Source: Lachnospiraceae bacterium (lineage in GTDB: Bacteria; Bacillota; Clostridia; Lachnospirales; Lachnospiraceae). From it: a stretch of DNA of 32,681 bases. The translations under genes and the position numbers were made by a program. The notes beneath the pieces were generated by a model that saw only the letters and a list, made by a program, of their open reading frames with translations, did not search any database and was not told where the DNA came from. The DNA is taken from positions 1 through 32,681 of the forward strand of contig JAFZLD010000008.1 of NCBI GenBank assembly GCA_017553505.1, given 5' to 3'. Positions 5,665-29,844 of the stretch are shown in pieces; positions within the stretch are counted from its first letter, which is position 1; each line of letters opens with the position of its first letter.

Positions 5665-5673
5665 TGGTATAAT
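5665..5673 (+). promoter_or_regulatory. Extended -10 promoter before the AAA+/TelA operon
   Basis: TGGTATAAT is a full extended -10 element (TGn plus TATAAT, 5668-5673). There is no convincing -35 box 16-18 bases upstream, as expected for extended -10 promoters. The start would be near 5680, inside the left arm of the following hairpin. Confidence 0.5.
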
Positions 5674-5674
5674 G

Positions 5675-5699
5675 CAAGGGACTCGAAAAGAGTCCCTTG
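5675..5699 (+). terminator. Perfect 10-bp stem-loop after hydA
   Basis: CAAGGGACTC (5675-5684) pairs perfectly with GAGTCCCTTG (5690-5699) around a GAAAA loop. It lies 75 bases after the hydA stop and before the next ribosome site. The tail (TTTACTATTTA) is only moderately U-rich, so it could be a weak terminator for the hyd operon or a 5' stabilising stem for the next one. A second, looser pairing (CTGTAAT/ATTACAG, 5611-5640) precedes it. Confidence 0.5.
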
Positions 5700-5728
5700 T
5701 TTACTATTTAGGGTTAGAGGGTATTACG

Positions 5729-6835
5729 ATGGTACAAAGAATGAGTGAGACGGAACTTCAAATCTCATCCATAAAGAATCTTGATATGGTGAATATCTAT
5801 CACCTCTTCGACGACGGAAAGTCACTGCTTGGCATACTTGCTTACTACGAAGGCAGCAAGGTAATTAATCTGTGCGCTGCCGATGAAGGCTTTCCGGTAC
5901 TTCTTGATAAAATAGTCGAAGTCTATTCTCGTGAGAAACAATACGGAAGAATCGTGTTAGATTATAACACTAAGCAGATACTGGATCGGTCAATTTCTTT
6001 GTCGACAGATAACTACGGGAAAATGCTAAGTGACTTCACCGAGACGGCTAAGCCGATATTTCTTGACAAGGCATTTATACATGTACTGACGATTCCGCTT
6101 GTAAAATACGTTGTTGAGGGAATATATGGTGTTAACGACACGCCCGTCAACTGGGACATATATAACAAGAGCTGGTACGGACATGGAATACTGACTGCAT
6201 CAGTCAATCGAAAAACGGTCAGATTTCCTTACAGAATAACGCGACAAAACGACAAACTGTACCGTGTAATCATTAACGGAGTGCTTAAGCAGAGCAATAC
6301 GCTTACGATTGATATAATGCATGACATGAAAGGAATCGGAGTAAACTTTTATGATGCTTTGTGCGGATACGAAGGAAACCTTACCGCAGACATTTCGGAA
6401 GCGACGCCGACATTACAGTTTAACATCAATAGCGCAGGAAAGAGAGTTTATTATACAGAAGATATCATAACAGAGAGCAATTCCGAAGAATCGCGCAATG
6501 TCACGAAGCTTTCTTTTGCGGACATTGAGTTCAAAGAATACAAGCTTCCGTGGGGAGAGAGGATATTCTTAGCCGCTGACAATGACAGAACACAGTGCAT
6601 ATTCGCAGGAAGCAGCGTGGCGGAAACGATTTCATACGGAATATGCAGCGTAGGACTGGGTGACGGCAAGAAGACCCCAATAGGACTTGGGTTGTTTTCA
6701 TATATGCTTTTTGAATCCGCATCGCTAAAGGAGCTTCACTTCCTCGATATGGGTTACCCGCAGCTTGCGTTGTACAAGGATAATTTCGCGGGAAAATGCT
6801 ACACACTTAACAAGGGGGTACACCATGGCAATTAA
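5729..6835 (+). CDS. Unrecognised protein, first gene of AAA+/TelA operon
   Basis: A 368-residue protein I do not recognise. It has no signal peptide, membrane segment or Cys cluster, and looks soluble, mixed alpha/beta and cytoplasmic. The last 50 residues (GLGLFSYMLFESASLKELHFLDMGYPQ in two parts, then ALYKDNF) faintly recall the end of a GNAT-like acyltransferase fold, but I see no acetyl-CoA loop and would not assign it. The start is ATG 5729, because AGAGGG (5716-5721) is well spaced. An in-frame TTG at 5651 has no ribosome site and would translate across the promoter and hairpin. It overlaps the AAA+ gene by 11 bases, which implies translational coupling and a shared job, perhaps as adaptor or substrate-recognition partner. 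Confidence 0.8.
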   Translation: MVQRMSETELQISSIKNLDMVNIYHLFDDGKSLLGILAYYEGSKVINLCAADEGFPVLLDKIVEVYSREKQYGRIVLDYNTKQILDRSISLSTDNYGKMLSDFTETAKPIFLDKAFIHVLTIPLVKYVVEGIYGVNDTPVNWDIYNKSWYGHGILTASVNRKTVRFPYRITRQNDKLYRVIINGVLKQSNTLTIDIMHDMKGIGVNFYDALCGYEGNLTADISEATPTLQFNINSAGKRVYYTEDIITESNSEESRNVTKLSFADIEFKEYKLPWGERIFLAADNDRTQCIFAGSSVAETISYGICSVGLGDGKKTPIGLGLFSYMLFESASLKELHFLDMGYPQLALYKDNFAGKCYTLNKGVHHGN

Positions 6836-9080
6836 GATTGAATTAGGACAGACACAGGACGAAAAGCGCCTGGACGATATCATAGATGTTTTGCAGAAGC
6901 GGTCGCAAAAGAGCGCGGCACTTCAGAGAGTTATCGCTGAGCTCAAGCAGGTTGAGGACGGAAAGAAAGAGCCTGATATTAAGCCGCTTGCTTTGTACGT
7001 TGATACGTGGGACGTAATCAGATCGAGCAGAGTGGAGGCTTCCAAGTATAATCTTCTGATGGAAAACGCCAAGAAGATTTATGACGATATATTCACCCTC
7101 GGCGAGCATACCCCTGAGTTTGATACGAAGGCAGTTTTTTACAAAAACATAATTCATGAAGACGGCGCGTTGCTTACCGGCGGTTATGTGAACTCGACGT
7201 TTGACTACAATTTGTTTTCGTCATTTGCGGACAAGAACAATTATCAGGTGCTGATTCGCACCATTAAGAAGGCCGACGAGCCTGACAAAGTGCTGGATGC
7301 GGTTTCGACTTACGGACTTCGCGTAAGAGAGTATATTATTGACGACTATGGGTATTTAAGCAACCTCCTCGCTGTGACAAAGAAACTTATTGCCACCAAT
7401 CCCGAAAATTATGAGGCAATAATTGATGAAGCGGCTGCAAAGGTCGAGCGTTGCAACGGAGTGTACGATATTTCTCCCGAAAGGCTCGCACTTGTTGAAA
7501 AGAATGTCAGCACCGCAGAAGCTATAGTAGCAAGCGGGAAGGAGCTTTTTGAAGGTATTGAACTTAAAAGCAAGACTTTCGAAGCAATGGCTGATGAGTT
7601 AAACGAAAAGGCCAAGAACATCGTCAGAATCTCTGAGGAGACGCTTGATGCCAAAGCTAAGAACGTTAAGGCAGAAGTTGACATTGCCCTCAAGGAATAT
7701 ATAGCTTCGCAAAAGAAAACGATTATTATGGAGAAAGACGCTCTCCTTAAGCAGGTATTTTCCGATGCAGAGGCAGAGCTTAACAAATATAAGGCTCTTG
7801 CGAAGGCACTTACAAACAATACTTCCGCAGAGATTGCCATGCTCGGTAAGGATGCGGACGCTGTGGTGGACCGCATAGGAAGAACCATTCATAACGATGA
7901 GAAGATTAATGAATTTCTGACCAAGGCGAAGGTTGATGAGGCTATTCTTGATAAGATAGAGAAACTCAGCGTACTTAACAACGCAAGCATAGAGCGCATG
8001 GCAAAGCAGCCTAACGGCGTGCCTGTTCCGCCTATGGCACCCGGCATGCCTGTCGGCGAGCCCGGCCCCGAGGCCGGCGCACCTCTCGGCGCACCCAGTC
8101 TTATGCCGCCCCCTCCGCACGTTCCTCAAAGATACAGACATGACGGCCCCATTGAGCCCGTAAGCCCCCTTCTTGACAGAAGTATTCCTTTTGCCGACCG
8201 CTTCAGATTGGTTCAGGCGGAGAAGCAGAGAAGAATTGAGCAGGGTGAGCTCTTTCACGAGATGTTTGACGATGTAATCACCGCAGTTATGGAAGATGTT
8301 AACCCTTACCTTATCGGACCTTCGGGTTGCGGTAAGACATATATGATAATGCAGGTAGGACAGATTCTGGGACTTAACTGCGACGATATCGGCTACATCA
8401 ATGAAGAATACGATATCCTCGGCTATGTTACGGCTACAGGCGAGTACAGCGAGTCTAACTTCTACAGACTTTATAAGTACGGCGGAATTGCTTTCTGCGA
8501 CGAGCTTGATAACGGTAACAGCAAGGCTACGGTTAAGCTTAATTCTTTCCTTACCAACAAGATTGATTCAAGCTACAGTTTCCCCGGTGGCGAGCGCGTA
8601 CAGCGTCATCCCAACTTCCGCGTGATTGCGGCGGGTAATACCGACGGAAGCGGTGCAGACGTTAACTACAGCACCAGAGAGAAGATAGAGGAGTCTGTTC
8701 AGCAGCGTATGATTCCTATCTATATCGACTACGATAACCGTGTAGAACAGGCAATTCTTAAGGACTACCCCGACTGGTTCGAGTTTGTATGCGCCTTCAG
8801 AAAGGCTACCGACAAGTGGGGAGAGGTATGCGGAATTCCCGCTTCGGGTATTGTTACCACAAGAGATACGCAGAGAATCAGGACGTACCTTGAAAACGGA
8901 AGCTTCAGCACCGAAAAGATTATTATCTATGAATTTATACAGACCAAGGACCCTGAGTATCTTGCTTTTCTTGCCGAAGAACTCGACAAGAGAATCGATG
9001 CCAAGTCCGTGGCTCGCAGTATCTTGACAACATTCACCAAGCAGGTTGAACTGGTTAGAAGCAAAGGAAGAAAGTATTAA
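6825..9080 (+). CDS. Coiled-coil/Pro-rich AAA+ ATPase (MoxR/CobS-like)
   Basis: A 751-residue cytoplasmic ATPase. Residues 1 to about 395 are helical, with long charged stretches rich in Ala, Glu and Lys (about 240-390) that look coiled-coil. Residues 396-437 form a Pro/Gly-rich linker. From about 480 to the end is one AAA_5-type module: Walker A GPSGCGKT (498-505), Walker B AFCDELDN with D559/E560, sensor 1 VIAAGNTDG, and an arginine-finger-like STREKIEESVQQRM. This domain resembles the MoxR/CbbQ/CobS group of remodelling ATPases, which normally act with a von Willebrand A partner. The start is ATG 6825 with AAGGGGG (6812-6818); an upstream in-frame TTG at 6765 lies inside the previous gene. 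The stop shares one base with the next start (TAATG). The client is unknown. Confidence 0.88.
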   Translation: MAIKIELGQTQDEKRLDDIIDVLQKRSQKSAALQRVIAELKQVEDGKKEPDIKPLALYVDTWDVIRSSRVEASKYNLLMENAKKIYDDIFTLGEHTPEFDTKAVFYKNIIHEDGALLTGGYVNSTFDYNLFSSFADKNNYQVLIRTIKKADEPDKVLDAVSTYGLRVREYIIDDYGYLSNLLAVTKKLIATNPENYEAIIDEAAAKVERCNGVYDISPERLALVEKNVSTAEAIVASGKELFEGIELKSKTFEAMADELNEKAKNIVRISEETLDAKAKNVKAEVDIALKEYIASQKKTIIMEKDALLKQVFSDAEAELNKYKALAKALTNNTSAEIAMLGKDADAVVDRIGRTIHNDEKINEFLTKAKVDEAILDKIEKLSVLNNASIERMAKQPNGVPVPPMAPGMPVGEPGPEAGAPLGAPSLMPPPPHVPQRYRHDGPIEPVSPLLDRSIPFADRFRLVQAEKQRRIEQGELFHEMFDDVITAVMEDVNPYLIGPSGCGKTYMIMQVGQILGLNCDDIGYINEEYDILGYVTATGEYSESNFYRLYKYGGIAFCDELDNGNSKATVKLNSFLTNKIDSSYSFPGGERVQRHPNFRVIAAGNTDGSGADVNYSTREKIEESVQQRMIPIYIDYDNRVEQAILKDYPDWFEFVCAFRKATDKWGEVCGIPASGIVTTRDTQRIRTYLENGSFSTEKIIIYEFIQTKDPEYLAFLAEELDKRIDAKSVARSILTTFTKQVELVRSKGRKY

Positions 9081-9979
9081 TGCCCGTAACTCCGTCACTA
9101 CAGATAAGCAGAGATGAAAAGTTCAGAATATACAGGATTAATTTCAAGTCACTTACAGAGCTCGAACTCTACCTTAAAGGTAATCCGGAAGTAAACAAAT
9201 CTGTGTTTAAGACACAGAAGAGTATTTACCTTCTGGAGGATTTCGCCGGAGAGCCGTTGCCTGCCGCCATCAATTATTGCCACGGCGGCTATGAGACAGG
9301 ACTCGGTGTATTCCTGCGCCTTAAAAAGGAACTTGAGAGCGTCAACGTTATGAAGACGAATTTCCGCCGCTCTGTGCCTGCAGTAGTAGGTTCCAGGCCG
9401 CATGTGCCCAATTTCGTAGCCGGCACGCCCAAGACCATGTTCCGCCTCGATAAGGCCAAGGAAAAGAAGTTCATCGACATGTACATAAATCTTGCCTACA
9501 GCGGCGAGAATACTGATGAGCAGATCAGAAACCGCGGCATACTTACGCTTAACCTTATTACCCTTTTCGAAAGCAACGGTATCGGCGTCAATCTGCATGC
9601 TTTTGAGGCAAGTTACAACTATGAGGAACTCTTCATAGCCGACGTTAAGCTTAAACGTCCCGACGAAATCATCAATGTCGGCAAGTGCTATTACCCTTTG
9701 TGCGGTAAGGAGTTTATCCGCCGTGTTCTGCTGCGAGTCAAGGAATCCATGCCCTTTATGGAGAAGTGGGGCCTTGGCTACGGCGCAGTTCTGCCGGAGA
9801 CCCTTATCAGAAAATACATGGGAATCGACGACAAGAAATTGTTGATTCTTGCGCCCGACGAAATGGGCATTAAGGGCAAGGACATATATGAGGACGCAGC
9901 CGTTTTCTTTGAGCGCCTTAACCTGTCCGACAAGATATCCATCCCCAACTACAAGAATCACAAGAAAAATGAGGCATAA
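9080..9979 (+). CDS. Possible vWA-like partner of the AAA+ ATPase
   Basis: A 299-residue soluble protein without a firm family. Residues 107-120 (PHVPNFVAGTPKTM), then a strand IDMYINLAYSG (132-142), then RG at 152-153 followed by a helix and LFESNGIGVNLHAFEA, resemble a group of phage and actinobacterial proteins I recall as DUF7192-like. The strand-helix-strand pattern is consistent with a degenerate von Willebrand A/Rossmann core, although no DxSxS metal site is present. A vWA-like role would fit its position directly after a CobS/MoxR-type ATPase. The last residues contain NLSDKISIPNY (281-291), which is nearly repeated at the start of the next protein. It overlaps the AAA+ stop by one base and ends two bases before the next ATG. 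Function is inferred from context only. Confidence 0.8.
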   Translation: MPVTPSLQISRDEKFRIYRINFKSLTELELYLKGNPEVNKSVFKTQKSIYLLEDFAGEPLPAAINYCHGGYETGLGVFLRLKKELESVNVMKTNFRRSVPAVVGSRPHVPNFVAGTPKTMFRLDKAKEKKFIDMYINLAYSGENTDEQIRNRGILTLNLITLFESNGIGVNLHAFEASYNYEELFIADVKLKRPDEIINVGKCYYPLCGKEFIRRVLLRVKESMPFMEKWGLGYGAVLPETLIRKYMGIDDKKLLILAPDEMGIKGKDIYEDAAVFFERLNLSDKISIPNYKNHKKNEA

Positions 9980-9981
9980 AG

Positions 9982-10602
9982 ATGAGCGAAATCAATCTTA
10001 GCGATAAAGTATCCATAATCAACTACGGCGTAGGCATACAGCACAAGCTTGCCAATTTGAGCGCAGCCGTGTCCGACATAGTCAAAGAAAAAGACTATTC
10101 CGACATCAAGCAATTAACCGACACCCTCATCGAGCTTATGTCCATGGATGAGCGCAAGACGCCTCTTTACACGGACACCGTAATCGAAAGCATCAAGGAA
10201 GAACTTATCAAGATTCGCTTTGAATTGTTAAAAGAATGCAAGCTCTATGAAGAACTTCGCAACACGAACGAGGTTTACATAACACAGATATCAACCGAAA
10301 TTGCCGATGGCGAAAGTTTTATCAGAGGTATCAAGGATAGTAAAATATCCTATTCAGACTCGTTCTCGCTTTCCGAGCTTAAGGCGCGCGTCAAGGAGCT
10401 TAAAACTTCCAAGACCGTTGCCGGAACCTTGAACGAGCAGTTATCCCTTTATCAAAAGAACAGTGCTTCTTTTGCCGAAAGAATCAGTTCCGTTATCAAT
10501 TCACTCATGCCTCTGTGGGAGAGCAAGGCAGCCCTTTCCGCGAATAAAGAAAGCACACAAAAAGCCTTCAGGATGCTGAAGGCTCTGGTGGACGAAATAT
10601 AA
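9982..10602 (+). CDS. Short TelA-like toxic anion resistance protein
   Basis: A 206-residue helical protein resembling TelA/KlaA (toxic anion resistance family, PF05816). The N-terminal YGVGIQHKLANLSAAVSDIV matches the family's FG-x2-Q-x-K opening. Residues 88-115 (KLYEELRNTNEVYI followed by an ADGESF-like turn) match the middle. Residues 133-185, including LKARVKELKTSKTVA, LYQKN and VINSLMPLWESKAAL, match the most conserved core (RVxxLKxSxTxA, QxxxLIQxN, TxxPLW). Typical TelA proteins are about 350-400 residues, so this is a compact form. TelA proteins are linked to tellurite and envelope stress by genetics, with mechanism unknown. It is the last gene of the operon, and its stop abuts the stop of the convergent HD gene with no intervening base and no terminator. 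Confidence 0.82.
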   Translation: MSEINLSDKVSIINYGVGIQHKLANLSAAVSDIVKEKDYSDIKQLTDTLIELMSMDERKTPLYTDTVIESIKEELIKIRFELLKECKLYEELRNTNEVYITQISTEIADGESFIRGIKDSKISYSDSFSLSELKARVKELKTSKTVAGTLNEQLSLYQKNSASFAERISSVINSLMPLWESKAALSANKESTQKAFRMLKALVDEI

Positions 10603-11913: not shown

Positions 11914-13143
11914 TTATTCTGTAGCGCCTTCAACAACCTTGGCGTTCTCTCTGATGTACTTAATTACTGCGTACTTGATAGCGGTCTGGTTAACGTAGGA
12001 CTGACCGTATGTGGAAAGGGCCTGTTCTTCGCCACCGTAGTACTTAAGAATCATCTTATAATCTTCATCATCAATGGTTAAGCCTGCGCTTTTGAAGATG
12101 GATTCGTAAGTAAGATCCATGCTGGCCTCCTTAATAGCACGTTCCTTAAGGTCCTTCTCATACTCGCTGTTGCTCTTCTGAGTGTAATCGGAGAAGCTCA
12201 TGCTTGCGGCATCTGAGTATCCGTAGTATGTCATGTAAGTCTTGTACTGTTCGAAACTCTGCTCATCACTGTACTTAAGAAGCTGCTTTAAGTGGTTTCT
12301 GTAAGAAGAAGGAATCTTCGAAGCAGAAGCGTTCTCTGTAACGTAATTGGAGATATATGTGTCAAGGTTGCTCTTATAGCCCTGATCTTTGATGTAGGCT
12401 TTGAAGTCTGCAACATTGTCTGCTATATCGCTGTGATTGGTCTTAACATACTCGTCATCAAGCTCGGGAAGAGTCCAGATGGAGTTAACTTTACATTCGA
12501 ATACTGCTTCCTTACCTGCAAGGTCGGGGTTGTTATCGTAAGGGTCGGGAAATGTTACTGTAACGGTAACATTATCACCGGGGTGAGAGCCGATAAGCTG
12601 CTCTTCAAAGTTATCGATGAACTGGCCGGAACCGATGGTAAGAACCTGATTCTCAGCTGTGCCGCCGTCAAACTGAACGCCGTCGATGGAACCTGAGTAG
12701 TCGAGGTTGATGGCGCTGCCGTCCTTAACGGTTGCGGTAGCATCGTCACTGTAAAATCCGTGCTGCTGAAGATCTGAGTTAATCTGGGATTCAACGGTTT
12801 CATCGCTGAATTCAACCTCTGAGAAAGGAATCTCCATTCCCACAAGACCTAAGTCTGTTACAGAGGATAAATCGGCGCCCTTTACAAATCCTTCGTCAGT
12901 AAGACCTGCACTGTAATTCGAATCGGAAACGGTAGTGGTAAAGTGCTGATACATGCCGGCTGCGATTATACCGATTACAGCAACGGCGAGTAAAATACCT
13001 ATTACCCAGCCGAGGATTGCATCAAAATTCTTCTTAACCTTGGCTGCCTTGACTTCGGCTGCGCGGGCTTGTCTTTTTGCTTTGCTTTTGCTGATGGAAG
13101 ATTCTGATACTTCTTCCACTTTCTCTTTAATTTCTTCGCTCAT
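11914..13143 (-). CDS. Membrane-anchored trigger-factor/FKBP-like foldase
   Basis: A 409-residue protein. A charged cytoplasmic N-terminus (1-43) is followed by one membrane segment (about 44-66, LGWVIGILLAVAVIGIIAAG), so the rest is outside the cell. Residues about 130-215 form an FKBP-type domain: INLDYSGSIDGVQFDGGTA, LTIGSGQFIDNFEEQLIG and GDNVTVTVTFPDPY are the classic peptidyl-prolyl isomerase strands. The C-terminal 190 residues are helical, like the trigger-factor chaperone arms. It is probably an extracytoplasmic folding factor for secreted proteins, an inference from topology and domains. It is a paralogue of the next gene with near-identical FKBP blocks. A well-formed promoter (TTGAAA-17-TATACT) precedes it, so it can be expressed alone. 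Confidence 0.88.
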   Translation of the reverse strand: MSEEIKEKVEEVSESSISKSKAKRQARAAEVKAAKVKKNFDAILGWVIGILLAVAVIGIIAAGMYQHFTTTVSDSNYSAGLTDEGFVKGADLSSVTDLGLVGMEIPFSEVEFSDETVESQINSDLQQHGFYSDDATATVKDGSAINLDYSGSIDGVQFDGGTAENQVLTIGSGQFIDNFEEQLIGSHPGDNVTVTVTFPDPYDNNPDLAGKEAVFECKVNSIWTLPELDDEYVKTNHSDIADNVADFKAYIKDQGYKSNLDTYISNYVTENASASKIPSSYRNHLKQLLKYSDEQSFEQYKTYMTYYGYSDAASMSFSDYTQKSNSEYEKDLKERAIKEASMDLTYESIFKSAGLTIDDEDYKMILKYYGGEEQALSTYGQSYVNQTAIKYAVIKYIRENAKVVEGATE

Positions 13144-13189
13144 AATAAATAGTCCTTCCTATGTATGTGCTTGTGCGACATACGTTAAG

Positions 13190-13218
13190 AGTATACGATT
13201 TTTTGCTGCCTTTTTCAA
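13190..13218 (-). promoter_or_regulatory. Promoter of the 409-residue foldase gene
   Basis: On the minus strand, TTGAAA (13218-13213) and TATACT (13195-13190) are 17 bases apart. The region just upstream of the -10 (AAAAAATCG) is similar to that in the promoter of the paralogous gene, suggesting the promoter was duplicated with it. Confidence 0.65.
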
Positions 13219-13223
13219 GCAGA

Positions 13224-14579
13224 TTATTCTTGGGGCTCGTCAATCACGTGGGCATTCTCTTCAAGGAAAGAGATAACGGAATACTTAATTGCGGTCTGAA
13301 GAATGTAAGGCTTGCCGTAAGTGTTGACAGCGTCCTCGCCACCGTAGTAATTGACAATCTGGTTGTAATCGTCATCGGAAATGGTGAGGTCCGCGCTTTT
13401 AAATATTGACTCGTAAGTAAGATCGAGCGTAACCTGTTCCAAAGCAGTATCGGCTACGTAAGTCTCATAGTCCTCATCGCTTAAGCCGGTGTAATCGGCA
13501 AGAGTCATATTGGCCGCATCGTAGTAACCGTAGTAAACCATGTAGGTCTTATACTCTTCAAACTGCTGGTTGATGGTGTATTTTACAAGGTTCTTCATGT
13601 TATCAAGGTAGTCGGAGGGAATGTCATAAGCTTCGGCATTACTTGAAATGTAATTGGCAATGTAGCTCTGAATGTTGCTCTTAACGCCCTGCTCCTTGAT
13701 GTAAGCCTTTACTTCTTCAAGGTTTGAACCAAAGTCGTTTAAGTATTTCTGCACGAATTCGTCGTTAACTTCGGGAGTCTTGTAAATTGAGTTGACTTTG
13801 CACTCAAAAACGGCTTCTTTGCCCGCTAAATCCGCGCTGTGGTAATCCTCGGGGAAGGTAACGGTAACGGTTACATCGTCGCCGGGGTGAGCGCCGATAA
13901 GCTGCTCTTCAAAGTTATCGATGAACTGACCGGAACCGATGGTAAGTGTCTGGTACTCGGCTGTACCGCCGTCGAACTTAACACCGTCGATGGAACCCGA
14001 ATAGTTAAGATTGATGGTGTTACCGTTCTGAACCGTAAGCTCGGGGTTGTCATCATAAAAAGCATAATTGGATGCAGCCTCCAAAAGGTCGGCATTTACC
14101 TTATCATCGATGTAGGCAACGGAGCCGTAAGGAATCTCCATTCCCATAAGGTTAAGGTCCTTAACGGAAGAGATGTCGGCACCCTTTATGAAGCCTTCTT
14201 CCGTAAGCTGTGCGCTAAAATCAAAGTCGGGAACGGAAGGTTCCGAACCGGAAACGGATTCATTGTCCGAAACCGACTCGCCGGTCGATGCAACTTCTTC
14301 GGATACGGAAGTCTCATTGGTGGTGCTGACAGTGTTTCTGTCATCTGTTGCGGGTTTCTTCAAAAGAAAAATCACAACACAAATCAAACCCGCAATAAGA
14401 GCCACGGAAGCGACTGCAATTGCAATTATCAAGCCTTTCTTATGTGTAACGGTTGCCTCGGCTTCAAGAGGGGCACCATTAAGTGAAGGCTCTGTAGTAT
14501 CGGTTACTTCAGTTTCGGCTGCCTCGGTCGCGGTAACTTGCGCTTCAGTCTTAACTGATTCGTTAAATTCTTCGTTCAT
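13224..14579 (-). CDS. Membrane-anchored trigger-factor/FKBP-like foldase, paralogue
   Basis: A 451-residue paralogue of the neighbouring gene with the same plan: an acidic, Thr/Glu-rich cytoplasmic tail (1-48), one membrane segment (about 49-72, GLIIAIAVASVALIAGLICV), a low-complexity Ser/Glu/Val linker (about 75-115), an FKBP domain (INLNYSGSIDGVKFDGGTA, LTIGSGQFIDNFEEQLIG, GDDVTVTVTFPEDY) and a helical trigger-factor-like C-terminal region. The linker is longer than in the paralogue, which may set the distance from the membrane. Both end in a YGGE-x4-TYG-x2-Y motif. Probably an extracellular prolyl isomerase/chaperone. It has its own promoter and no obvious terminator before the next gene. 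Confidence 0.88.
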   Translation of the reverse strand: MNEEFNESVKTEAQVTATEAAETEVTDTTEPSLNGAPLEAEATVTHKKGLIIAIAVASVALIAGLICVVIFLLKKPATDDRNTVSTTNETSVSEEVASTGESVSDNESVSGSEPSVPDFDFSAQLTEEGFIKGADISSVKDLNLMGMEIPYGSVAYIDDKVNADLLEAASNYAFYDDNPELTVQNGNTINLNYSGSIDGVKFDGGTAEYQTLTIGSGQFIDNFEEQLIGAHPGDDVTVTVTFPEDYHSADLAGKEAVFECKVNSIYKTPEVNDEFVQKYLNDFGSNLEEVKAYIKEQGVKSNIQSYIANYISSNAEAYDIPSDYLDNMKNLVKYTINQQFEEYKTYMVYYGYYDAANMTLADYTGLSDEDYETYVADTALEQVTLDLTYESIFKSADLTISDDDYNQIVNYYGGEDAVNTYGKPYILQTAIKYSVISFLEENAHVIDEPQE

Positions 14580-21625: not shown

Positions 21626-23302
21626 ATGGGGAGTAAATTTAACGAACTTACGATGGACGCGGCGGTGGAGAGAAGCCCCATGGGTCGATATCCGAGACCT
21701 TCCATGGTAAGAGATTCTTATATGTGTTTAAACGGCAAGTGGGACGACGGGGTAACCGTGCCCTTCCCGCTTGAATCAAGGCTCTCAGGCTTCAAAGGCC
21801 GATTCACGGGCGAATACACCTACTATAGAAAAATCTGCATAGACAAGGACTTTGTGAAGAACCGAATCCTGCTTCATTTCGGCGCTGTTGACGCGATTGC
21901 CGACGTCTACATCGACGACTCTTTGGTGTGCCATCATGAGGGCGGGTACATTCCTTTTACCATCGACGTGACCGACTACATCCACATCGACAAGGTTCAG
22001 ACCCTTACGGTGGAAGTCCGCGACAGCCTTTCGCACCTTTACCCTTACGGTAAGCAAAAGAAAAATCGCGGCGGCATGTGGTACACTCCCGTGAGCGGTA
22101 TCTGGCAGACCGTCTGGATGGAGAGCGTTCCCGAGAAATACATTAAGAGTATAGAAATAACACCTTCCCTCGACCGCGTGACCTTTGATGTCGAGACGGA
22201 CGAGGAAGTTATAGGCGTCGAGATATATGACGGCGACATGCTTGTTTATAAGGGCAAGTCTGACAATCCTTATTTTACCGTGCCCATTAAGAATCCGGTG
22301 TTGTGGACTCCGGATAACCCGCATCTTTACGATGTTACTATTACGGCGGGGCGCGACGAGGTTAAGTCGTACTTCGGACTCAGGACCGTTTCAATCGGAG
22401 AGGTGAAGGGTGTTAAGAGAATATTGCTTAACGGCAAGCCTTTCTTTTTCCACGGGGTGCTCGATCAGGGGTACTTCCCGGAGGGCATATTTACGCCTAA
22501 TAACGAGGATGTGTACCGCGAGGATATATTAAGACTTAAGGCTCTTGGTATCAATACGATTCGTAAGCATATTAAGATTGAGCCCGAGTGCTTCTATGAG
22601 GCCTGCGACCGCCTGGGAATGTTAGTGTTCCAGGACATGGTTAATAACGGAAGATACAGCTTCTTACGCGATACCGTGATGCCGACTATCGGCCACAAGA
22701 CTATCGATGATACCAAGAGACGAGTCAAGGACGAGGTCAAAGCGACCTTCGAGCAGCATATGGAGGATACGCTGGCGCACCTTTATAACTTCCCTTGTAT
22801 TGTGTATTACACGATTTTTAATGAGGGCTGGGGGCAGTTTGACTCGGATATCATGTACGATATTATGAGAGCGATGGACTCTACAAGGATTATCGATTCT
22901 ACTTCGGGCTGGTTCTGGCAGACTACTTCGGATGTAGACAGCTATCACATATACTTTAAGGATGTTCAGATAGAGGAGTCGGACAGACCCATCATTCTTT
23001 CGGAGTTCGGAGGGTATTCGTATAAGATTCCCGAGCATTCTTTTAACCATAGGAAGAACTACGGCTACGGTAAGGCGGAATCCTCCGAGCAGCTTACCGA
23101 GATGATAGTAAGTTTATATACCAAAGATATCCTTCCGGCCATAGATAAGGGCCTGTGCGGTTCGATTTACACGCAGGCGACGGACGTGGAGGATGAAACC
23201 AACGGTTTTTACACATATGACAGAAAGGTCTGCAAGGTTGACGCGGACAGGATGCGCAAGCTTGCTGAGGCACTTTCTCAGAGGATGACTGATGGAACAT
23301 AA
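21626..23302 (+). CDS. GH2 family glycoside hydrolase
   Basis: A 558-residue glycosidase of family GH2 (beta-galactosidase/glucuronidase type), probably cytoplasmic because there is no signal peptide. Order: N-terminal jelly-roll sugar-binding domain (about 25-175, with GEYTYYRKI, HFGAVDAIADVYIDD and GGMWYTPVSGIWQTVWME), an immunoglobulin-like sandwich (about 175-265, ending VLWTPDNPHLYDVTI) and a TIM barrel from about 270. The catalytic acid/base is E400 in FNEGWG and the nucleophile E460 in LSEFGG. It is shorter than LacZ and lacks the C-terminal domains, like the compact gut and rumen members. Substrate is not deducible. It overlaps the downstream TPR-DUF4037 gene by 11 bases. Confidence 0.92.
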   Translation: MGSKFNELTMDAAVERSPMGRYPRPSMVRDSYMCLNGKWDDGVTVPFPLESRLSGFKGRFTGEYTYYRKICIDKDFVKNRILLHFGAVDAIADVYIDDSLVCHHEGGYIPFTIDVTDYIHIDKVQTLTVEVRDSLSHLYPYGKQKKNRGGMWYTPVSGIWQTVWMESVPEKYIKSIEITPSLDRVTFDVETDEEVIGVEIYDGDMLVYKGKSDNPYFTVPIKNPVLWTPDNPHLYDVTITAGRDEVKSYFGLRTVSIGEVKGVKRILLNGKPFFFHGVLDQGYFPEGIFTPNNEDVYREDILRLKALGINTIRKHIKIEPECFYEACDRLGMLVFQDMVNNGRYSFLRDTVMPTIGHKTIDDTKRRVKDEVKATFEQHMEDTLAHLYNFPCIVYYTIFNEGWGQFDSDIMYDIMRAMDSTRIIDSTSGWFWQTTSDVDSYHIYFKDVQIEESDRPIILSEFGGYSYKIPEHSFNHRKNYGYGKAESSEQLTEMIVSLYTKDILPAIDKGLCGSIYTQATDVEDETNGFYTYDRKVCKVDADRMRKLAEALSQRMTDGT

Positions 23303-25472
23303 TGCTGAAGATACTCTGGTCAGGGAAATTAATGATGCGGTGAGCCGCGGTGATGACGGTGCGTTGCTTGAACTTCTCAACGAATACGTAGGGTTGCTGC
23401 GCGACAGGGGAGAGGCGGAGGCTTCGCTTCAAATTGCGGGCAAGATTCTTGAACTTTTAGACAGTATGGGTCTTGCGGGAACCGTTAGCTACGGCACGAG
23501 CCTGCTTAATGTTGCGACTGCATACAGAGCGGCGGGTAAATTGCAGGAAGCTGAGAAGCTTTATGATGAGGTGGCGGCTGTATATGCGGAGACTTTGCCG
23601 GAAGATTCTATGCTGGTGGCTAGTTTACATAACAACAAGAGCCTTCTTTTTCAGGAAGAGGGTCTGTATGAGAAGGCGGCAGCAGAGCTGAATGCGGCGC
23701 TCGAGATTTCCGAGGCCAATAACGCGGAGTACGAGATTGCGGTTACCAACGCTAATCTTTCGAATACCTACGTGGCGCTCGGCGATTTGAAGAAGGCTGA
23801 GGAAAAAGCGCTCGAGGCCGCCGAGATGTTTAAGACTATCGAGGATACCGACACGCATTACGCTTCGGCACTTTATGCGCTCGGCATGATTTATAACATG
23901 AAGGGTCAGCAGGACAAGGCAGTTGCCCCGTTGTCAGAGGCTCTGGCAATTATGGACAAAGAACACGGCAGGACCGAGTATTACGCACGAATCGAAGCGG
24001 AGCTTAAGAAAGCAAAGGGCTCGGATGCCACTGACGACATTAAGGGCATGGATATTTGCCGCGCGTTTTTTGAAGAGAAATTCGTGCCCGTGATTATGGA
24101 GAAGTTCCCTGCGTACAAGAGTAAGATTGCGGCGGGACTCGTGGGAAGAGGTTCGGATTGCTACGGATATGACGATGCAGAGTCCAGAGATCACGACTGG
24201 GGGCCGGGCTTTCAGTTATATGTTTCGGAGGAGACCTATGCCGAAATCGGCAAGGAACTTGAAGAAGCTTATAACGCTTTACCCAAGGAGTTTATGGGCT
24301 TCAAGGTTGCGCCGGTTGTAAGCGGACATAAGCGTCGCGGAGTATCTACGGTAGAAGGATTCTATAAGGAACTTCTCGGCAAGTACCCGCTTGCTGAGGA
24401 AGATTACCTTACCATACCCGATTATGCCCTAAGCACAGCGGTTAACGGATGCGTATTTACTGACGAAGAAGGTGCCTTCAGCCTTGAAAGATCTAAGCTG
24501 GAAGAAGGCTATCCGGAGTCTGTGCAGTTTAAGAAGCTTGCTCAGTACGCTGCCGAGTTTTCGCAGTGCGCTCAGTACAATTTCAGCAGGATGCTTAAGC
24601 GGGGAGATGAATTGACTGCCAAGGTCATGCTCGCCGACGGTATCAAAGCTGCCATGAAGCTTGCACACATCATAGAAAACAAGTATTTCCCTCATGATAA
24701 ATGGCTCTTTAAGAGTCTCGATGATTTGGAGATGGGAGATGAGTTAAAGCCTTTATTGCTTGCCGCTACCGATACTGCAAGCGTCGACCGGATTGGTCAA
24801 TTCTTTGCTCAGATCATGTATGAGATGGGCTACATCAGCGATACGGACGATTATCTCGACCATCATACCGAAGAGTTGATGATTAAGTCTGAGTTATGTA
24901 AACTAACAGTGCAGCAACTTGCCAAGAAAGTAGTCCGACTCGAATTTGAAGCCTTTGACAAAGTACAGAACGAAGGCGGTCGCGCGTCCTGCCAGGATGA
25001 CTTCTGCACCTTCGATATCATGCGCGAAAGCCAGTACCTTACCTGGACCAAAGAAATGCTCATGCAGTACCTGTACGACTTTGAAATTGAGCTTAAGAAA
25101 GGTCACAACCTTATTACAGAGAAGTACGGCCGCATGATGGAGAGCACAGCTCCCACACGCTATGCAGAGATTAAAGATAACTTCCCGGCTATTTCTCCCG
25201 AGAAGAAGCAGATTATAGAGACTATAGTCGCCATCCAGACCGGCATGACCGAAGCTTTCTACGATGCTCACCCGGACCTTCTCAAGCAGGCCCGCAGCAT
25301 TCACACCTCAGAGGATACCGAATACAACACTTCCAACGAGACGTACCTACGCGGCGAGATATCGACATACTCCGACAAGATGCTGGAGCTCTACGGCAGA
25401 TATGTGGCGGCTCACGCACAGGCCGGTAAGAACATTACGGAAGAAATCATTTCACATACTGTAAAGCTTTAA
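23292..25472 (+). CDS. TPR protein with DUF4037 nucleotidyltransferase-like domain
   Basis: A 726-residue cytoplasmic fusion. Residues about 30-250 are tetratricopeptide repeats (helical pairs such as GKLQEAEKLYDEVAAVYAE, EGLYEKAAAELNAALEIS, GDLKKAEEKALEAAEMF, GQQDKAVAPLSEALAIM). The rest is a DUF4037 domain. GRGSD (285-289) followed by DHDWG (300-304) matches the GS...DxD metal-binding pattern of nucleotidyltransferase folds, and GVSTVEGFYKELLG is a conserved DUF4037 block. TPR arms usually hold a partner protein or peptide. The target of the predicted transferase is unknown. The gene begins inside the GH2 gene, so the two are co-translated, an odd pairing of a glycosidase with a putative nucleotidyltransferase. 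Confidence 0.88.
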   Translation: MEHNAEDTLVREINDAVSRGDDGALLELLNEYVGLLRDRGEAEASLQIAGKILELLDSMGLAGTVSYGTSLLNVATAYRAAGKLQEAEKLYDEVAAVYAETLPEDSMLVASLHNNKSLLFQEEGLYEKAAAELNAALEISEANNAEYEIAVTNANLSNTYVALGDLKKAEEKALEAAEMFKTIEDTDTHYASALYALGMIYNMKGQQDKAVAPLSEALAIMDKEHGRTEYYARIEAELKKAKGSDATDDIKGMDICRAFFEEKFVPVIMEKFPAYKSKIAAGLVGRGSDCYGYDDAESRDHDWGPGFQLYVSEETYAEIGKELEEAYNALPKEFMGFKVAPVVSGHKRRGVSTVEGFYKELLGKYPLAEEDYLTIPDYALSTAVNGCVFTDEEGAFSLERSKLEEGYPESVQFKKLAQYAAEFSQCAQYNFSRMLKRGDELTAKVMLADGIKAAMKLAHIIENKYFPHDKWLFKSLDDLEMGDELKPLLLAATDTASVDRIGQFFAQIMYEMGYISDTDDYLDHHTEELMIKSELCKLTVQQLAKKVVRLEFEAFDKVQNEGGRASCQDDFCTFDIMRESQYLTWTKEMLMQYLYDFEIELKKGHNLITEKYGRMMESTAPTRYAEIKDNFPAISPEKKQIIETIVAIQTGMTEAFYDAHPDLLKQARSIHTSEDTEYNTSNETYLRGEISTYSDKMLELYGRYVAAHAQAGKNITEEIISHTVKL

Positions 25473-25511: not shown

Positions 25512-27410
25512 TTAAGTTACCTTCGGAATCTTGAAACTTACACAGGTTCCGAGTCCCGGAGTGCTTTCGACGTGCAATCCCTGACCATATTGGTTCTTAA
25601 GACGCTTGTCGATGTTGTAAATACCTATGCTCTGGTTTTCTTTGGGCATCACGAAGAGCCGTTGCATTGCGGCTTCGTCCATACCTACGCCGTTATCGCT
25701 TACGAAAAACTCGACGGAGTCAAGGTTCTCTATGATACGAAGTGTTACAACGCCCGGCTTATCGGACTTACGAACACCGTGCTTGATAGCGTTCTCGATA
25801 AGAGGCTGTATGGTAATCGGCGGCATCATGATGTTGGGGACCCGAAGCGGGAATTCATTGGCAAACATGATGCTTGGAAATCTTTCTTTTTCTATTGCCG
25901 TGTAGGCTTCCACAAGTTCGAGCTCGTGGCGGATGGGCACGGTCTTGTCCATGTTATCAAGGCTTAGGATGAGCTTTAGGTACTCGGAAAGCGAGTTAAT
26001 AAGCTTCTGGGCCTTCTTGGAATCGGTAACGCAACAATCTGCGATGGTATTAAGCGTATTGTACAGGAAGTGAGGCTTCATCTGCGCGTTTAAGAAGGCG
26101 TTCTCGGAAGCCTGCATCGCTTCAAGCTGACGGGAGAGCTCGCTGGTGTAGAAGTTTTCGTTGGCGTTCTGGGCGGCGTATTCGCGACCTAAGATTGTAA
26201 CCATAGCGATTGATAATACGATGTAACCCATGGAGTAGGCAAACTTCGAAGGTACCAGCATGTCGAATGTAAGCCTGTAGAGTATAAGGTTACTTGCTAC
26301 GAGCGCAAGCGAAATGCCGTAAGGTATAGCATTGGGCTCGTTTTTTTCATAGGCCTTCACGAAGGTATAACCGCACATTATGTAAGGTATTAAAGATACT
26401 ATAGTCGAAATGCTCCCAAGCAACGGGAACTGCTGCAGAGTGAGTGCATTCACGAGCGGGAACAGAAGCAATACCGACACGAAGTAGCTTATTCGTTTCG
26501 GGAAGGATTCTTTGAACAATCCTGCAGTGAAATACATAAGCGAAAGCAGATACAAAGGCTCTGCAACAGCCTCCACAAAGGATCCTGTGCCGGCCGTAAG
26601 GGTCGGGATAAAGCTCATAATGCAGCGGTCGTCCATAAATGCCATAACAATGCATGTCATACCTGACAGGCAGACAAACGGTACGATAACCGACTCGAAC
26701 CTAAGCGCCAGGAGCTGAATGAGCATGTATACCATGGTAAAAATGACATAAGCCGCCATAAAGAGACCGATGTGCTGCTCACCGATCTGTGACCAGTGCA
26801 ATCTGTCGGATGTGGCAAAAAAAGCCGTATCGGGACAGGAATTCATATAATTGACGGGGGAAATAACCTGCGCAACTACCGTATAGTAACCGTCAGCCGT
26901 GGGTGGAAGCTTGCTGACAAAGGATTTCGGGAATATCGGTTTGTTGGAGTTAAACGTAGGAGACTCGGAAACAAGCTCGCCGTTTACAAATATCCTGTAT
27001 TCGCAGAATTCTGACGGGAACCATATGGAATACTCGGCTTCCGTCGGAAGTTTGGTGTTAAAAGCAAGAGTTACGATATAATCATTACCCACTACGCTTT
27101 GCGGTCTTCTGTAATCGGAGAAAGCGGAAGCGTAGAAAAAATCATGAGTCTGCTTGGCATTGGTGATAAAATCGTCCACCGCCGTATAATTGCCGCTTGT
27201 AGGCGAAAGAAGCACACCGGGGAAGCAGATAATCTCGCCTGAAAGCGCGTAAAATTTAGCTGTATCGAAATAAAGAGTGTCGGAGGGTTCATCTGAGCGG
27301 GCGACATTCAATTCGACCGGCTGAATCGATTTATTCAGGAAAAACAAAACCGTAACGTAGATAAGCGGTAAGAGAATAATAATCAGGAGGGCATTGGTTC
27401 TTCTTTTCAT
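25512..27410 (-). CDS. LytS-type sensor histidine kinase with 7TM sensor
   Basis: A 632-residue membrane kinase. An N-terminal membrane anchor (about 8-26) is followed by an extracytoplasmic beta-rich domain (to about 215) and then seven predicted membrane helices (about 215-415), the layout of a 7TMR-DISM sensor. The cytoplasmic part has the His_kinase H-box QMKPHFLYNTLNTI with phospho-acceptor H447, then an HATPase: IQPLIENAIKHG (N-box), VSDNGVGMD (G1) and GLGTCVSFKIP (G2). It should autophosphorylate and pass phosphate to the response regulator two genes upstream. Its start overlaps the end of the other kinase by four bases (ATGA), so the two are translationally coupled. Confidence 0.92.
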   Translation of the reverse strand: MKRRTNALLIIILLPLIYVTVLFFLNKSIQPVELNVARSDEPSDTLYFDTAKFYALSGEIICFPGVLLSPTSGNYTAVDDFITNAKQTHDFFYASAFSDYRRPQSVVGNDYIVTLAFNTKLPTEAEYSIWFPSEFCEYRIFVNGELVSESPTFNSNKPIFPKSFVSKLPPTADGYYTVVAQVISPVNYMNSCPDTAFFATSDRLHWSQIGEQHIGLFMAAYVIFTMVYMLIQLLALRFESVIVPFVCLSGMTCIVMAFMDDRCIMSFIPTLTAGTGSFVEAVAEPLYLLSLMYFTAGLFKESFPKRISYFVSVLLLFPLVNALTLQQFPLLGSISTIVSLIPYIMCGYTFVKAYEKNEPNAIPYGISLALVASNLILYRLTFDMLVPSKFAYSMGYIVLSIAMVTILGREYAAQNANENFYTSELSRQLEAMQASENAFLNAQMKPHFLYNTLNTIADCCVTDSKKAQKLINSLSEYLKLILSLDNMDKTVPIRHELELVEAYTAIEKERFPSIMFANEFPLRVPNIMMPPITIQPLIENAIKHGVRKSDKPGVVTLRIIENLDSVEFFVSDNGVGMDEAAMQRLFVMPKENQSIGIYNIDKRLKNQYGQGLHVESTPGLGTCVSFKIPKVT

Positions 27411-28717
27411 GCATTGGCCCCCTTTTCACGCAAATATGCTTCGGCGTCGGGCGGTACGACGAAGGATACGCTGGTACCTACCCCCGGAGCACTCTGAATA
27501 ACAAGGCCTTTACCGAAGAGGTTTATAAGCCTTGTGTGAATGTTATATATGCCGATACGCGCGCTGTCGTTAAGCGAATCGGTGAGAGAAACCGCAACAT
27601 CTTCGTCCATACCGGCGCCGTTATCGGACACATCGATATGGTAGTAGTCACGGTAAGGAATAATCGTAAGCGTAACTTTGGGTTCGGCAGAATCCTCGGT
27701 AAATCCGTGCTCAATCGCATTCTCCACAAGGGGCTGAATGGAAAGAGGCGGTATATGAAAGTCCGGAAGCGGGTCCGGAAATTTGTATTCGACTTTAAGC
27801 TTGGGATATCTTTCTTTTTCAATGGCCACGAAAGCTTTGGTAAGCTCGATTTCGTTACTTAAGGGCACTATTCCCTGAAGCTGCTGGAAATTAAGCGTGT
27901 GGCGAAGGTATTTGGAAAGAGAAACCGTCAGATCCTCCGCCGTAAACGGGTCTTCATCGCACTTGCGGCTGATAAGGTCGAGAGAGCGATACAAAAATTC
28001 CGATTTCATCTGCGTGCACATAAGCGCGTTGTTCGAATGATTGATGCGCTCGATGGTATCGGAGAGAGAGGCGGAGAGCTTCTGCGTTTTCTTTATGGAA
28101 TTTCCGTAGGAGAGCGCGGTCATCAGCCCGTGGAAAAGCAGATAGAAGGGCATGAACAACATTCTGAGACCGATGATGTCTATGTGAAGCACAACTGTGA
28201 TAAATTCAGCGGTTACAACCATGCCCATGATAGTGTTGGCTATAATCAGATAGAAGTATTCGGATTTTCCATGCTTGATATTAATATGTGAAAGATGAAT
28301 TCCGTGAAATGCGGCAACGTATGACAAAGCAAAAAGAGCCACGTACATAGGAAAAACGTGATCGCTGGGAACTATCAGAGAACAAATGCTCAAGATGAGT
28401 AAAAGGGTATTGTATACGGAGGAATACTTAAACTGCACCTCGGTATACAGATATCCTGAGTAAATATTAAGCAATATGGTAGCTAAAGCGGTGGTAACAA
28501 GAAAAATATTGGGCGAGAGAGTACTAAGATAGTCTGCGTCGTAAATCAGGCAGGGACGCACGGAAATGTTCAGATTGATATTGAAAAAGAAACAAAGACA
28601 AAGGGCTGCAAAGAATACCATGCGCTTTGCGTTGCGGAAAAAATAGAAAATTATACCTGCATATAATCCCGATATTAAACACGACACAACGCAAAAGGCG
28701 CGGATAATGGTAATCAT
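27407..28717 (-). CDS. LytS-type kinase homologue lacking the phospho-His
   Basis: A 436-residue membrane protein with about six or seven predicted helices in residues 1-205, no large external domain, then a His_kinase/HATPase module. The H-box, normally QMKPHFLYNTL, reads QMKSEFLYRSL (236-246). The phospho-acceptor His is Glu (E240, codon GAA), and the Pro, Asn and Thr are also changed. The ATP-binding half looks intact: IQPLVENAIEHGF, VSDNGAGMD, GIYNIHTRL and GVGTSVSF. His to Glu needs two base changes, so it is unlikely to be a read error. It is probably a pseudo-kinase or regulatory subunit that pairs with the adjacent complete kinase, by inference. It starts 29 bases downstream of the response-regulator gene on the minus strand. 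Confidence 0.9.
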   Translation of the reverse strand: MITIIRAFCVVSCLISGLYAGIIFYFFRNAKRMVFFAALCLCFFFNINLNISVRPCLIYDADYLSTLSPNIFLVTTALATILLNIYSGYLYTEVQFKYSSVYNTLLLILSICSLIVPSDHVFPMYVALFALSYVAAFHGIHLSHINIKHGKSEYFYLIIANTIMGMVVTAEFITVVLHIDIIGLRMLFMPFYLLFHGLMTALSYGNSIKKTQKLSASLSDTIERINHSNNALMCTQMKSEFLYRSLDLISRKCDEDPFTAEDLTVSLSKYLRHTLNFQQLQGIVPLSNEIELTKAFVAIEKERYPKLKVEYKFPDPLPDFHIPPLSIQPLVENAIEHGFTEDSAEPKVTLTIIPYRDYYHIDVSDNGAGMDEDVAVSLTDSLNDSARIGIYNIHTRLINLFGKGLVIQSAPGVGTSVSFVVPPDAEAYLREKGANA

Positions 28718-28746
28718 TTACAGTCCTCTTTGAGTTTGTATTTATT

Positions 28747-29844
28747 CTATATGGCTTTAATGAGTTCCTTAATCTCCTGGGAAGGACCGAGACCATACTC
28801 TTTGAATAAGGAGTCTTTGTACTTCTCATAGTAATCGCGGATGGCTGCCGGAGGAAGTTTCTTTTGCTTAAGTCTGATAACTTCCTTGAAGGCGTCTTCC
28901 TCGTAAAGATCTACGCGGAGAACGGATTCGAAAGCATCGATAGCCGCATCGATTCTGTCTGCCTCGGCATAAAGACGTCCTGCTCTGTATAAAAGCTGGA
29001 TGTATCGGCCTTCGAGCCAGCCCTTGGTTTCCTCAGCCCAGTCGTAGAAACGGTTCTCAAGGTAGGGGCCCTTGTAGAGATTGATAAGGGTTTCAACCTC
29101 GGGAAGACCGAGAGTATCGGGGTTAGCAATCTTGCTTCTGAACTCAAGATAGTCACATTTGATTCTGGCGGTGTTGATGCTGTAGTCGTCGTGATCGCGT
29201 ACCAAAACGTCGGTGTAACCGAAGTCTGCGAGAGTACTTCTGATGTAGGTACAGGTTACGCGGAAGTTATTGGCTGCCTTATCAAGATCGGCATCGGGCC
29301 AGAGTGTATCAAGAATCATGTCCTTGGAGCGCGCACGGCCTTCGTTCTGAACAAGGTAAGCAAGGAGTTCCTCGGCCTTGGATGTTCTGAAACGAAGAGG
29401 CTCAAAGTCATTGGCTTTCTTAATGGAGAATGCGCCGAAGCAACTGATAATAAGCTTGTCGTCCTCAACTACGTGAGACTTTTCAAGCTTCTTCTCCATA
29501 CTGTCAATCTGAGCGGTGAAGTCGTCATGAGAAAGCGGCTTTAAGAGATAGCCCGTTGCATGAGCTCTGAATGCCTCCAAAGCATACTGATTGTAGGCGG
29601 TAACAAATACAATTTCCAAATAGGGATTGACGTCCATGAGACACTCGGCAAGTTCAAGGCCGGTCATTTCAGGCATTTCGATATCGAGAAAAGCGATGTC
29701 AACCTGATTGGACTTGATGAAGTCTATCGCGTCGGCGGGCTTGGTAAATGTCTTAAGAAGTTCCAAGCGATTATCCTGGGCGATAAGTCTTTCAAAACGA
29801 TTCAATGCATTCTGTTCATCGTCTACCGCAATAACTTTATACAT
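28747..29844 (-). CDS. Response regulator with winged-helix and BTAD domains
   Basis: A 365-residue transcription factor. The receiver domain (1 to about 120) has VDDEQ at the acidic pocket, phospho-acceptor D54 in FLDIEMPEMTG, and the conserved Thr (FVTAYNQ) and Lys (LLKPL). An OmpR-type winged helix follows (about 135-230: FRTSKAEELLAYLVQNEGR, then a DKAANNFRVTCTYIRSTL recognition helix region). The C-terminal 120 residues form a bacterial transcriptional activator domain of the SARP kind (YKGPYLEN, DWAEETKGWLE, RAGRLYAEADR). LytS-type kinases usually partner with LytTR regulators, so a SARP-type partner is a distinctive combination. It is first in the minus-strand unit, followed by the two kinases. 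A leader hairpin lies at 29876-29893. Confidence 0.9.
   Translation of the reverse strand: MYKVIAVDDEQNALNRFERLIAQDNRLELLKTFTKPADAIDFIKSNQVDIAFLDIEMPEMTGLELAECLMDVNPYLEIVFVTAYNQYALEAFRAHATGYLLKPLSHDDFTAQIDSMEKKLEKSHVVEDDKLIISCFGAFSIKKANDFEPLRFRTSKAEELLAYLVQNEGRARSKDMILDTLWPDADLDKAANNFRVTCTYIRSTLADFGYTDVLVRDHDDYSINTARIKCDYLEFRSKIANPDTLGLPEVETLINLYKGPYLENRFYDWAEETKGWLEGRYIQLLYRAGRLYAEADRIDAAIDAFESVLRVDLYEEDAFKEVIRLKQKKLPPAAIRDYYEKYKDSLFKEYGLGPSQEIKELIKAI

Follow-up and report, generated by a model that had tools for sequence, protein, structure and literature searches.

A conserved four-gene cassette of Lachnospiraceae bringing together a MoxR-type AAA+ protein, a predicted VWA-fold protein, a shortened TelA and a new protein family

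Four consecutive genes in a 32,681-nucleotide stretch of DNA from a Lachnospiraceae bacterium (contig JAFZLD010000008.1, assembly GCA_017553505.1; the whole stretch is referred to here as the window) form a conserved unit that is inherited together in a limited number of bacteria from the gut and the rumen. The four open frames, all on the + strand like every cassette feature described below, span 5729-10602 and encode a protein of a new family (P1, 5729..6835, 368 amino acids), an AAA+ protein that its sequence places in the MoxR type and whose long N-terminal part is helical (P2, 6825..9080, 751 amino acids), a DUF7192 protein with a predicted VWA fold (P3, 9080..9979, 299 amino acids) and a shortened TelA (P4, 9982..10602, 206 amino acids). 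We would file the cassette with the MoxR AAA+/VWA systems, to which it adds a TelA-derived subunit and the new family P1.

Scanning genomes with the AAA+ domain yielded 16 close and 18 distant loci, 34 in total (locus, genome and contig numbers with the prefixes L, G and C are our own). The 16 close loci, 15 from Lachnospiraceae and one from Acetatifactor, held P2 in every case and P1, P3 and P4 in 15 each, the P4 of L049 being recognised by profile only. All four genes stood in the same order and on the same strand in 14 of the 16; in the remaining two the locus has one of its ends within P2: L047 begins there, without P1 in the stretch, and L035 ends there, without P3 and P4. Three further genomes (G510, G809 and G625) carry the four genes in order, giving a total of 18 loci with the full set in order and strand, window included (P2 being split in one, L048). 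The flanking genes differ among lineages, with about ten settings by our reading, and any further gene family turns up beside at most 4 of the 16 close loci. The original prediction had staked the idea of a system on co-occurrence in other genomes, and this was borne out: among 397 genomes sampled from the family, P1 and DUF7192 were found in the same 4, and all 4 carry the complete cassette. Within the genus P1 was found in 3/18 genomes, and P3 in 3/60 relatives, the same three, whilst the class sample (P1, 1/391) and the phylum sample (PF23822, 1/398) each yielded the window's own genome.

Gene trees, built for 13 of the 18 loci, had 8-9 of 10 splits in common for each gene pair. The ratios of nonsynonymous to synonymous substitution rates (dN/dS, NG86 method; from two relatives of the window and from the pair L043/L044) were 0.17-0.21 for P1, 0.08-0.10 for P2, 0.02-0.09 for P3 and 0.18-0.20 for P4, values that are rough since several dS estimates lie near or above 1. 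They point to constraint on all four genes, strongest on P3, with P1 and P4 evolving faster than P2 and P3. Because order is kept in 14/16 close loci, the other two being cut inside P2, and dN/dS lies at 0.02-0.21, the gene set is more than chance.

The gene junctions are an 11-base overlap of P1 and P2 (6825-6835), a 1-base overlap of P2 and P3 (9080) and a 2-base gap between P3 and P4 (9980-9981), exactly as originally described. The beginning of the gene set, previously put at 5665, had to be moved. That position is out of frame with gene 1 and falls inside an extended -10 promoter-like box, TGGTATAAT (5665..5673), that is identical in two relatives (L034, a contig of G002, and L030). The reading frame of gene 1 is uninterrupted from TTG 5651 onwards, but the 26 upstream codons are out of frame in G002, where the gene begins at the counterpart of ATG 5729; we therefore place the start of P1 at ATG 5729 and not at TTG 5651 or 5665. 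Directly 3' of the TATAAT box lies a 10-base perfect inverted repeat, CAAGGGACTC GAAAA GAGTCCCTTG (5675-5699), unchanged in both compared relatives except for one loop base, which is either a candidate terminator of the upstream hydrogenase gene or a candidate 5' leader hairpin.

P2 comprises a helical N-terminal part, including a charged, coiled-coil-like stretch (residues 225-390, 7497..7994; judged from composition and sequence only), a proline-rich linker (residues 398-445, 8016..8159) and a C-terminal AAA+ domain (8160..9077, limits set by eye). The last matches AAA_5 (PF07728; 8.6e-09, 36 bits against a cut-off of 22) and phrog_249 (1.6e-31), and just two PDB sequence matches were obtained for P2 at E<=0.01, both NorQ (0.001 and 0.0063); a profile from 13 whole P2 proteins gave no PDB match at 0.001. 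The NorQ and phrog_249 matches are the grounds on which we class the domain as MoxR-type. Walker A (GPSGCGKT, residues 498-505, 8316..8339), Walker B (FCDELDN, residues 557-563), sensor 1 (AAGNT, residues 602-606) and Arg 628, to which we assign the role of arginine finger, are invariant in 13/13 aligned cassette P2 sequences, in agreement with the earlier description of a MoxR/CobS-type module with intact motifs. In G013 the P2 match ends at residue 701 near the end of contig C9 (L035, 8738-9458) and is followed by another open frame, presumably an IS200-type transposase, with the remainder of P2 sitting on contig C47; this copy may be interrupted. In a metagenome-assembled genome (L048:6659-8894) P2 is split across two overlapping frames, reflecting either a frameshift or an assembly error.

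P3 matches DUF7192 (PF23822) at 6.3e-19 (68.8 bits, cut-off 27) and phrog_1909 at 6.2e-25. Its predicted model (predicted local distance difference test 86.0, predicted template modelling score 0.81) gave four Foldseek matches in the PDB at E<=0.001, all of them VWA domains of NorD from structures solved together with the AAA+ partner NorQ. P3 is thus predicted to be a VWA-fold protein, and the proposal of a diverged vWA-like third protein, which a model with an unrelated fold would have undone, came through structure prediction. The divergence is seen at the metal ion-dependent adhesion site (MIDAS), where the intact DxSxS-T-D pattern is replaced by a degenerate NxAxS: motif 1, where strand beta-1 ends, reads NLAYS (residues 137-141, 9488..9502; alignment and model), and the T and second D were not identified in P3. 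Among 59 non-cassette DUF7192 rows of the alignment, D/N occurs at position 137 in 49%, S/T at 139 in 57% and S/N at 141 in 72%. Just before strand beta-1, residues 102-121 (VVGSRPHVPNFVAGTPKTMF, 9383..9442) are highly conserved and, by comparison with NorD, form a candidate pore finger.

P4 matches TelA (PF05816) at 3.3e-12 (46.6 bits, cut-off 30), and because the match, at 10177..10593, is limited to model positions 97-253 of 332 we regard it as a shortened TelA with only the middle left. The conserved TelA core of the original prediction therefore stands as a family match above the cut-off, but not as a whole TelA. A TelA match at E<=0.01 was obtained for 15/15 scanned cassette P4 proteins; that of G625, a deeper lineage, is a full-length TelA (1.2e-62, positions 2-328 of 332), that of G510 covers positions 6-269, and the P4 alignment shows the C-terminal end and an N-terminal part to be lost. 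By these sequence matches P4 is of TelA ancestry. PF05816 was present in 3/14 named control genomes. Elsewhere in the window's genome canonical XpaC (PF10112) and full TelA genes lie side by side (G000:C9:173000-187000, L177), and no AAA+/VWA genes were seen in the 14 kilobases around this pair.

P1 consists of helical and beta segments and, after them, a large beta-rich portion. It showed no match near cut-off in Pfam, NCBIfam, PHROGs or PADLOC (best NCBIfam match E 0.0085, 15.4 bits against a cut-off of 420), and 0/15 P1 proteins had any Pfam match at 0.1, so XpaC (PF10112) was not recognised among them. P1 is a new protein family, in keeping with the unknown first gene of the original description.

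On its own, the AAA+/DUF7192 pair is not confined to the cassette: it is common in phages. DUF7192 relatives of P3 occur in 259/50,697 phage records (E<=0.01), 236 of the 259 being staphylococcal, and relatives of the P2 AAA+ domain in 423 (E<=0.001); genes g055c-g054c of Kayvirus Stab20 are an example. Among the 98 non-cassette loci listed that were found via the AAA+ domain (18 bacterial and 80 of 104 viral, some near duplicates), both genes are present in 93, and in 90 of these they lie no more than 400 bases apart. Of the 93, the AAA+ gene leads in 53 and the DUF7192 gene in 40; the AAA+ gene stands alone in 5, three of these at the locus end. The cassette P1 and P4 profiles had no match in these 98 loci at E<=0.01, and the survey across phages that was originally suggested thus recovered the motor pair but not the full cassette. 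In the P3 tree the cassette sequences group in a single clade (support 1.0) whose sister (0.991) is a two-gene bacterial locus, L058, adjoined by a gene that we take to be UvrB-like. By eye, the pairs of the viral loci L068-L147 lie near ParB-, primase/helicase-, RNase H-, SSB- and RecA-like genes, and representatives of the phage neighbour clusters each occur in 9 to 20 of the 98 loci, a setting that hints at DNA metabolism. No function for the phage pair was found in the open-access literature searched.

The closest described parallel is NorQ/NorD, in which a MoxR-type AAA+ protein likewise adjoins a VWA-fold protein, the P3 model resembling the NorD VWA domain and P2 resembling NorQ. The cassette differs in that the MIDAS of P3 is degenerate, P3 has no NorD-like N-terminal domain, about 445 residues precede the P2 AAA+ domain, and P1 and a TelA-like P4 are present. 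The phage phrog_249 and phrog_1909 genes are homologous and adjacent in the same way, but their AAA+ N-terminal part is shorter and P1 and P4 were not found with them. P4 is homologous to the TelA of XpaC-TelA pairs (Listeria lmo1966-lmo1967, and the C9 locus above), whereas no XpaC was recognised in the cassette and P4 lacks the TelA C-terminal part. An AAA+ protein with a VWA partner is also common to RavA-ViaA, the CobST pairs described in tailed viruses (PMC8651126) and the MoxR-VWA pair described in jumbo phages (PMC7824862). Unlike P3, CobT is described with a MIDAS site and the DxSxS of E. coli ViaA is intact, and no TelA appears in the passages we draw on for CobST or RavA-ViaA. Ter systems (TerC, TerD, TerF/TerY, TelA) combine TelA with a VWA protein, but here the VWA protein is DUF7192 and a MoxR motor is added; no Ter genes were recognised beside the cassettes, whose flanks were scanned against Pfam only in small part. 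In the open-access literature we found no paper with the word DUF7192 and no description of this four-protein composition, as the original prediction had supposed. Among the matches listed, TelA, MoxR and vWA came together only in PMC7824862, in separate contexts in the passages concerned.

We favour, with moderate confidence, a reading in which P1-P4 make up one cytosolic remodelling machine, a MoxR/VWA motor for a TelA-derived client or scaffold. Its starting points are the gene unit and its co-inheritance, the intact P2 motifs, the predicted fold of P3 and the TelA ancestry of P4; the working parts are modelled on NorQD and the TelA literature. In NorQD the VWA domain is reported to sit in the C-terminal opening of the ring, with a finger entering the pore, and NorQ activity to remodel a linker in NorD (PMC13036017). 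By analogy, P2 would assemble into a MoxR-type ring on which P3 would dock as NorD does on NorQ, probably putting residues 102-121 into the pore. The helical, coiled-coil-like N-terminal part of P2 and the TelA-derived P4 might form a scaffold around the ring, with the beta-rich half of P1 giving client or ligand specificity, and ATP hydrolysis would pull or twist P3 and so remodel the client. MIDAS residues of NorD are reported as required for an active target and dispensable for NorQ binding (PMC9976466); because P3 keeps the fold and the stretch before beta-1 and its MIDAS has decayed, we see it as a ring-coupled adaptor, target binding having presumably moved to P4 and P1. The client is most likely a sub-membrane assembly of the TelA/P4 type, or a protein held by it, acting in an envelope-stress response. 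TelA proteins are linked to tellurite and cell-envelope antimicrobials, and Listeria reportedly becomes more sensitive to nisin and tellurite when its TelA is disrupted, through a mechanism given as unknown (PMC12791056); for Ter systems, TelA is named, alongside a VWA protein, as an example of what sub-membrane structures contain (PMC7824862).

An accidental neighbourhood of four unrelated genes is highly improbable. Tight spacing is common in compact genomes and P1 and P4 do evolve faster than P2 and P3, but the survey contradicts this reading, given 18 ordered loci across some ten settings, P1 and DUF7192 in the same 4/397 genomes, and congruent trees. A chaperone for metal or cofactor insertion, like NorQD or CobST and serving, for example, the adjacent [FeFe] hydrogenase with P4 only as a scaffold, seems to us unlikely. 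The closest structural relatives, NorQ and NorD, are described as driving metal insertion (PMC13036017), phage P2 relatives are annotated as porphyrin biosynthesis, and an [FeFe]-hydrogenase gene precedes the cassette in the window; this gene, however, was found at only two of the 16 close loci (in the window's genus, within the stretches examined), with different flanks elsewhere, and the MIDAS that NorD reportedly needs for its target (PMC9976466) is degenerate in P3.

We are likewise doubtful that the cassette is a domesticated phage module directed against phages, by superinfection exclusion or defence. The wide spread of the AAA+/DUF7192 pair in phages, the patchy presence of the cassette (3/18 genus genomes) and a proposal that TelA of Ter systems helps to prevent phage entry (PMC7824862) all fit such a role. 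Yet transfer between phage and bacterium may have gone in either direction, PADLOC returned no match of note for P1-P4 (one weak match, to P3, E 0.094), and the neighbourhoods, few of which were scanned, read mostly as ordinary chromosomal genes and not as defence islands.

On the reading as a remodelling machine, the conserved operon links an ATP-driven motor with a descendant of TelA and offers a series from full-length to minimal TelA with a concrete, testable set of partners, and DUF7192 gains a predicted identity as the VWA-fold partner of a MoxR-type motor. More speculatively, the four proteins may form a dedicated complex that represents an AAA+ machine of a new class: a MoxR/VWA motor, of a type also found in phages, would drive a TelA-type assembly, TelA proteins in general being scaffolds or clients handled by AAA+ proteins and P1 a new recognition subunit.

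Zinc-ribbon-like proteins adjoin the cassette in some lineages (L036:10568-11863, L048:4825-5349), with weak TFIIB-type matches below the cut-off. In G011 (contig C61, L032:4332-6040) a low-molecular-weight-phosphatase-like gene and an HD-type gene, which border the region in the window, have just a small membrane-protein-like gene between them, and the contig has no match to hydrogenase or cassette. Downstream in the window, two adjacent genes at 11914-14579, about 58% identical over their common part as measured in the relatives' copies, look by eye like trigger-factor-type proteins. A protein with TPR repeats, DUF4037 and DUF4125 (23292-25469) adjoins a glycoside hydrolase family 2 gene, and 25515-29844 contains three consecutive genes, two for histidine kinases and one for a response regulator whose BTAD match is weak.
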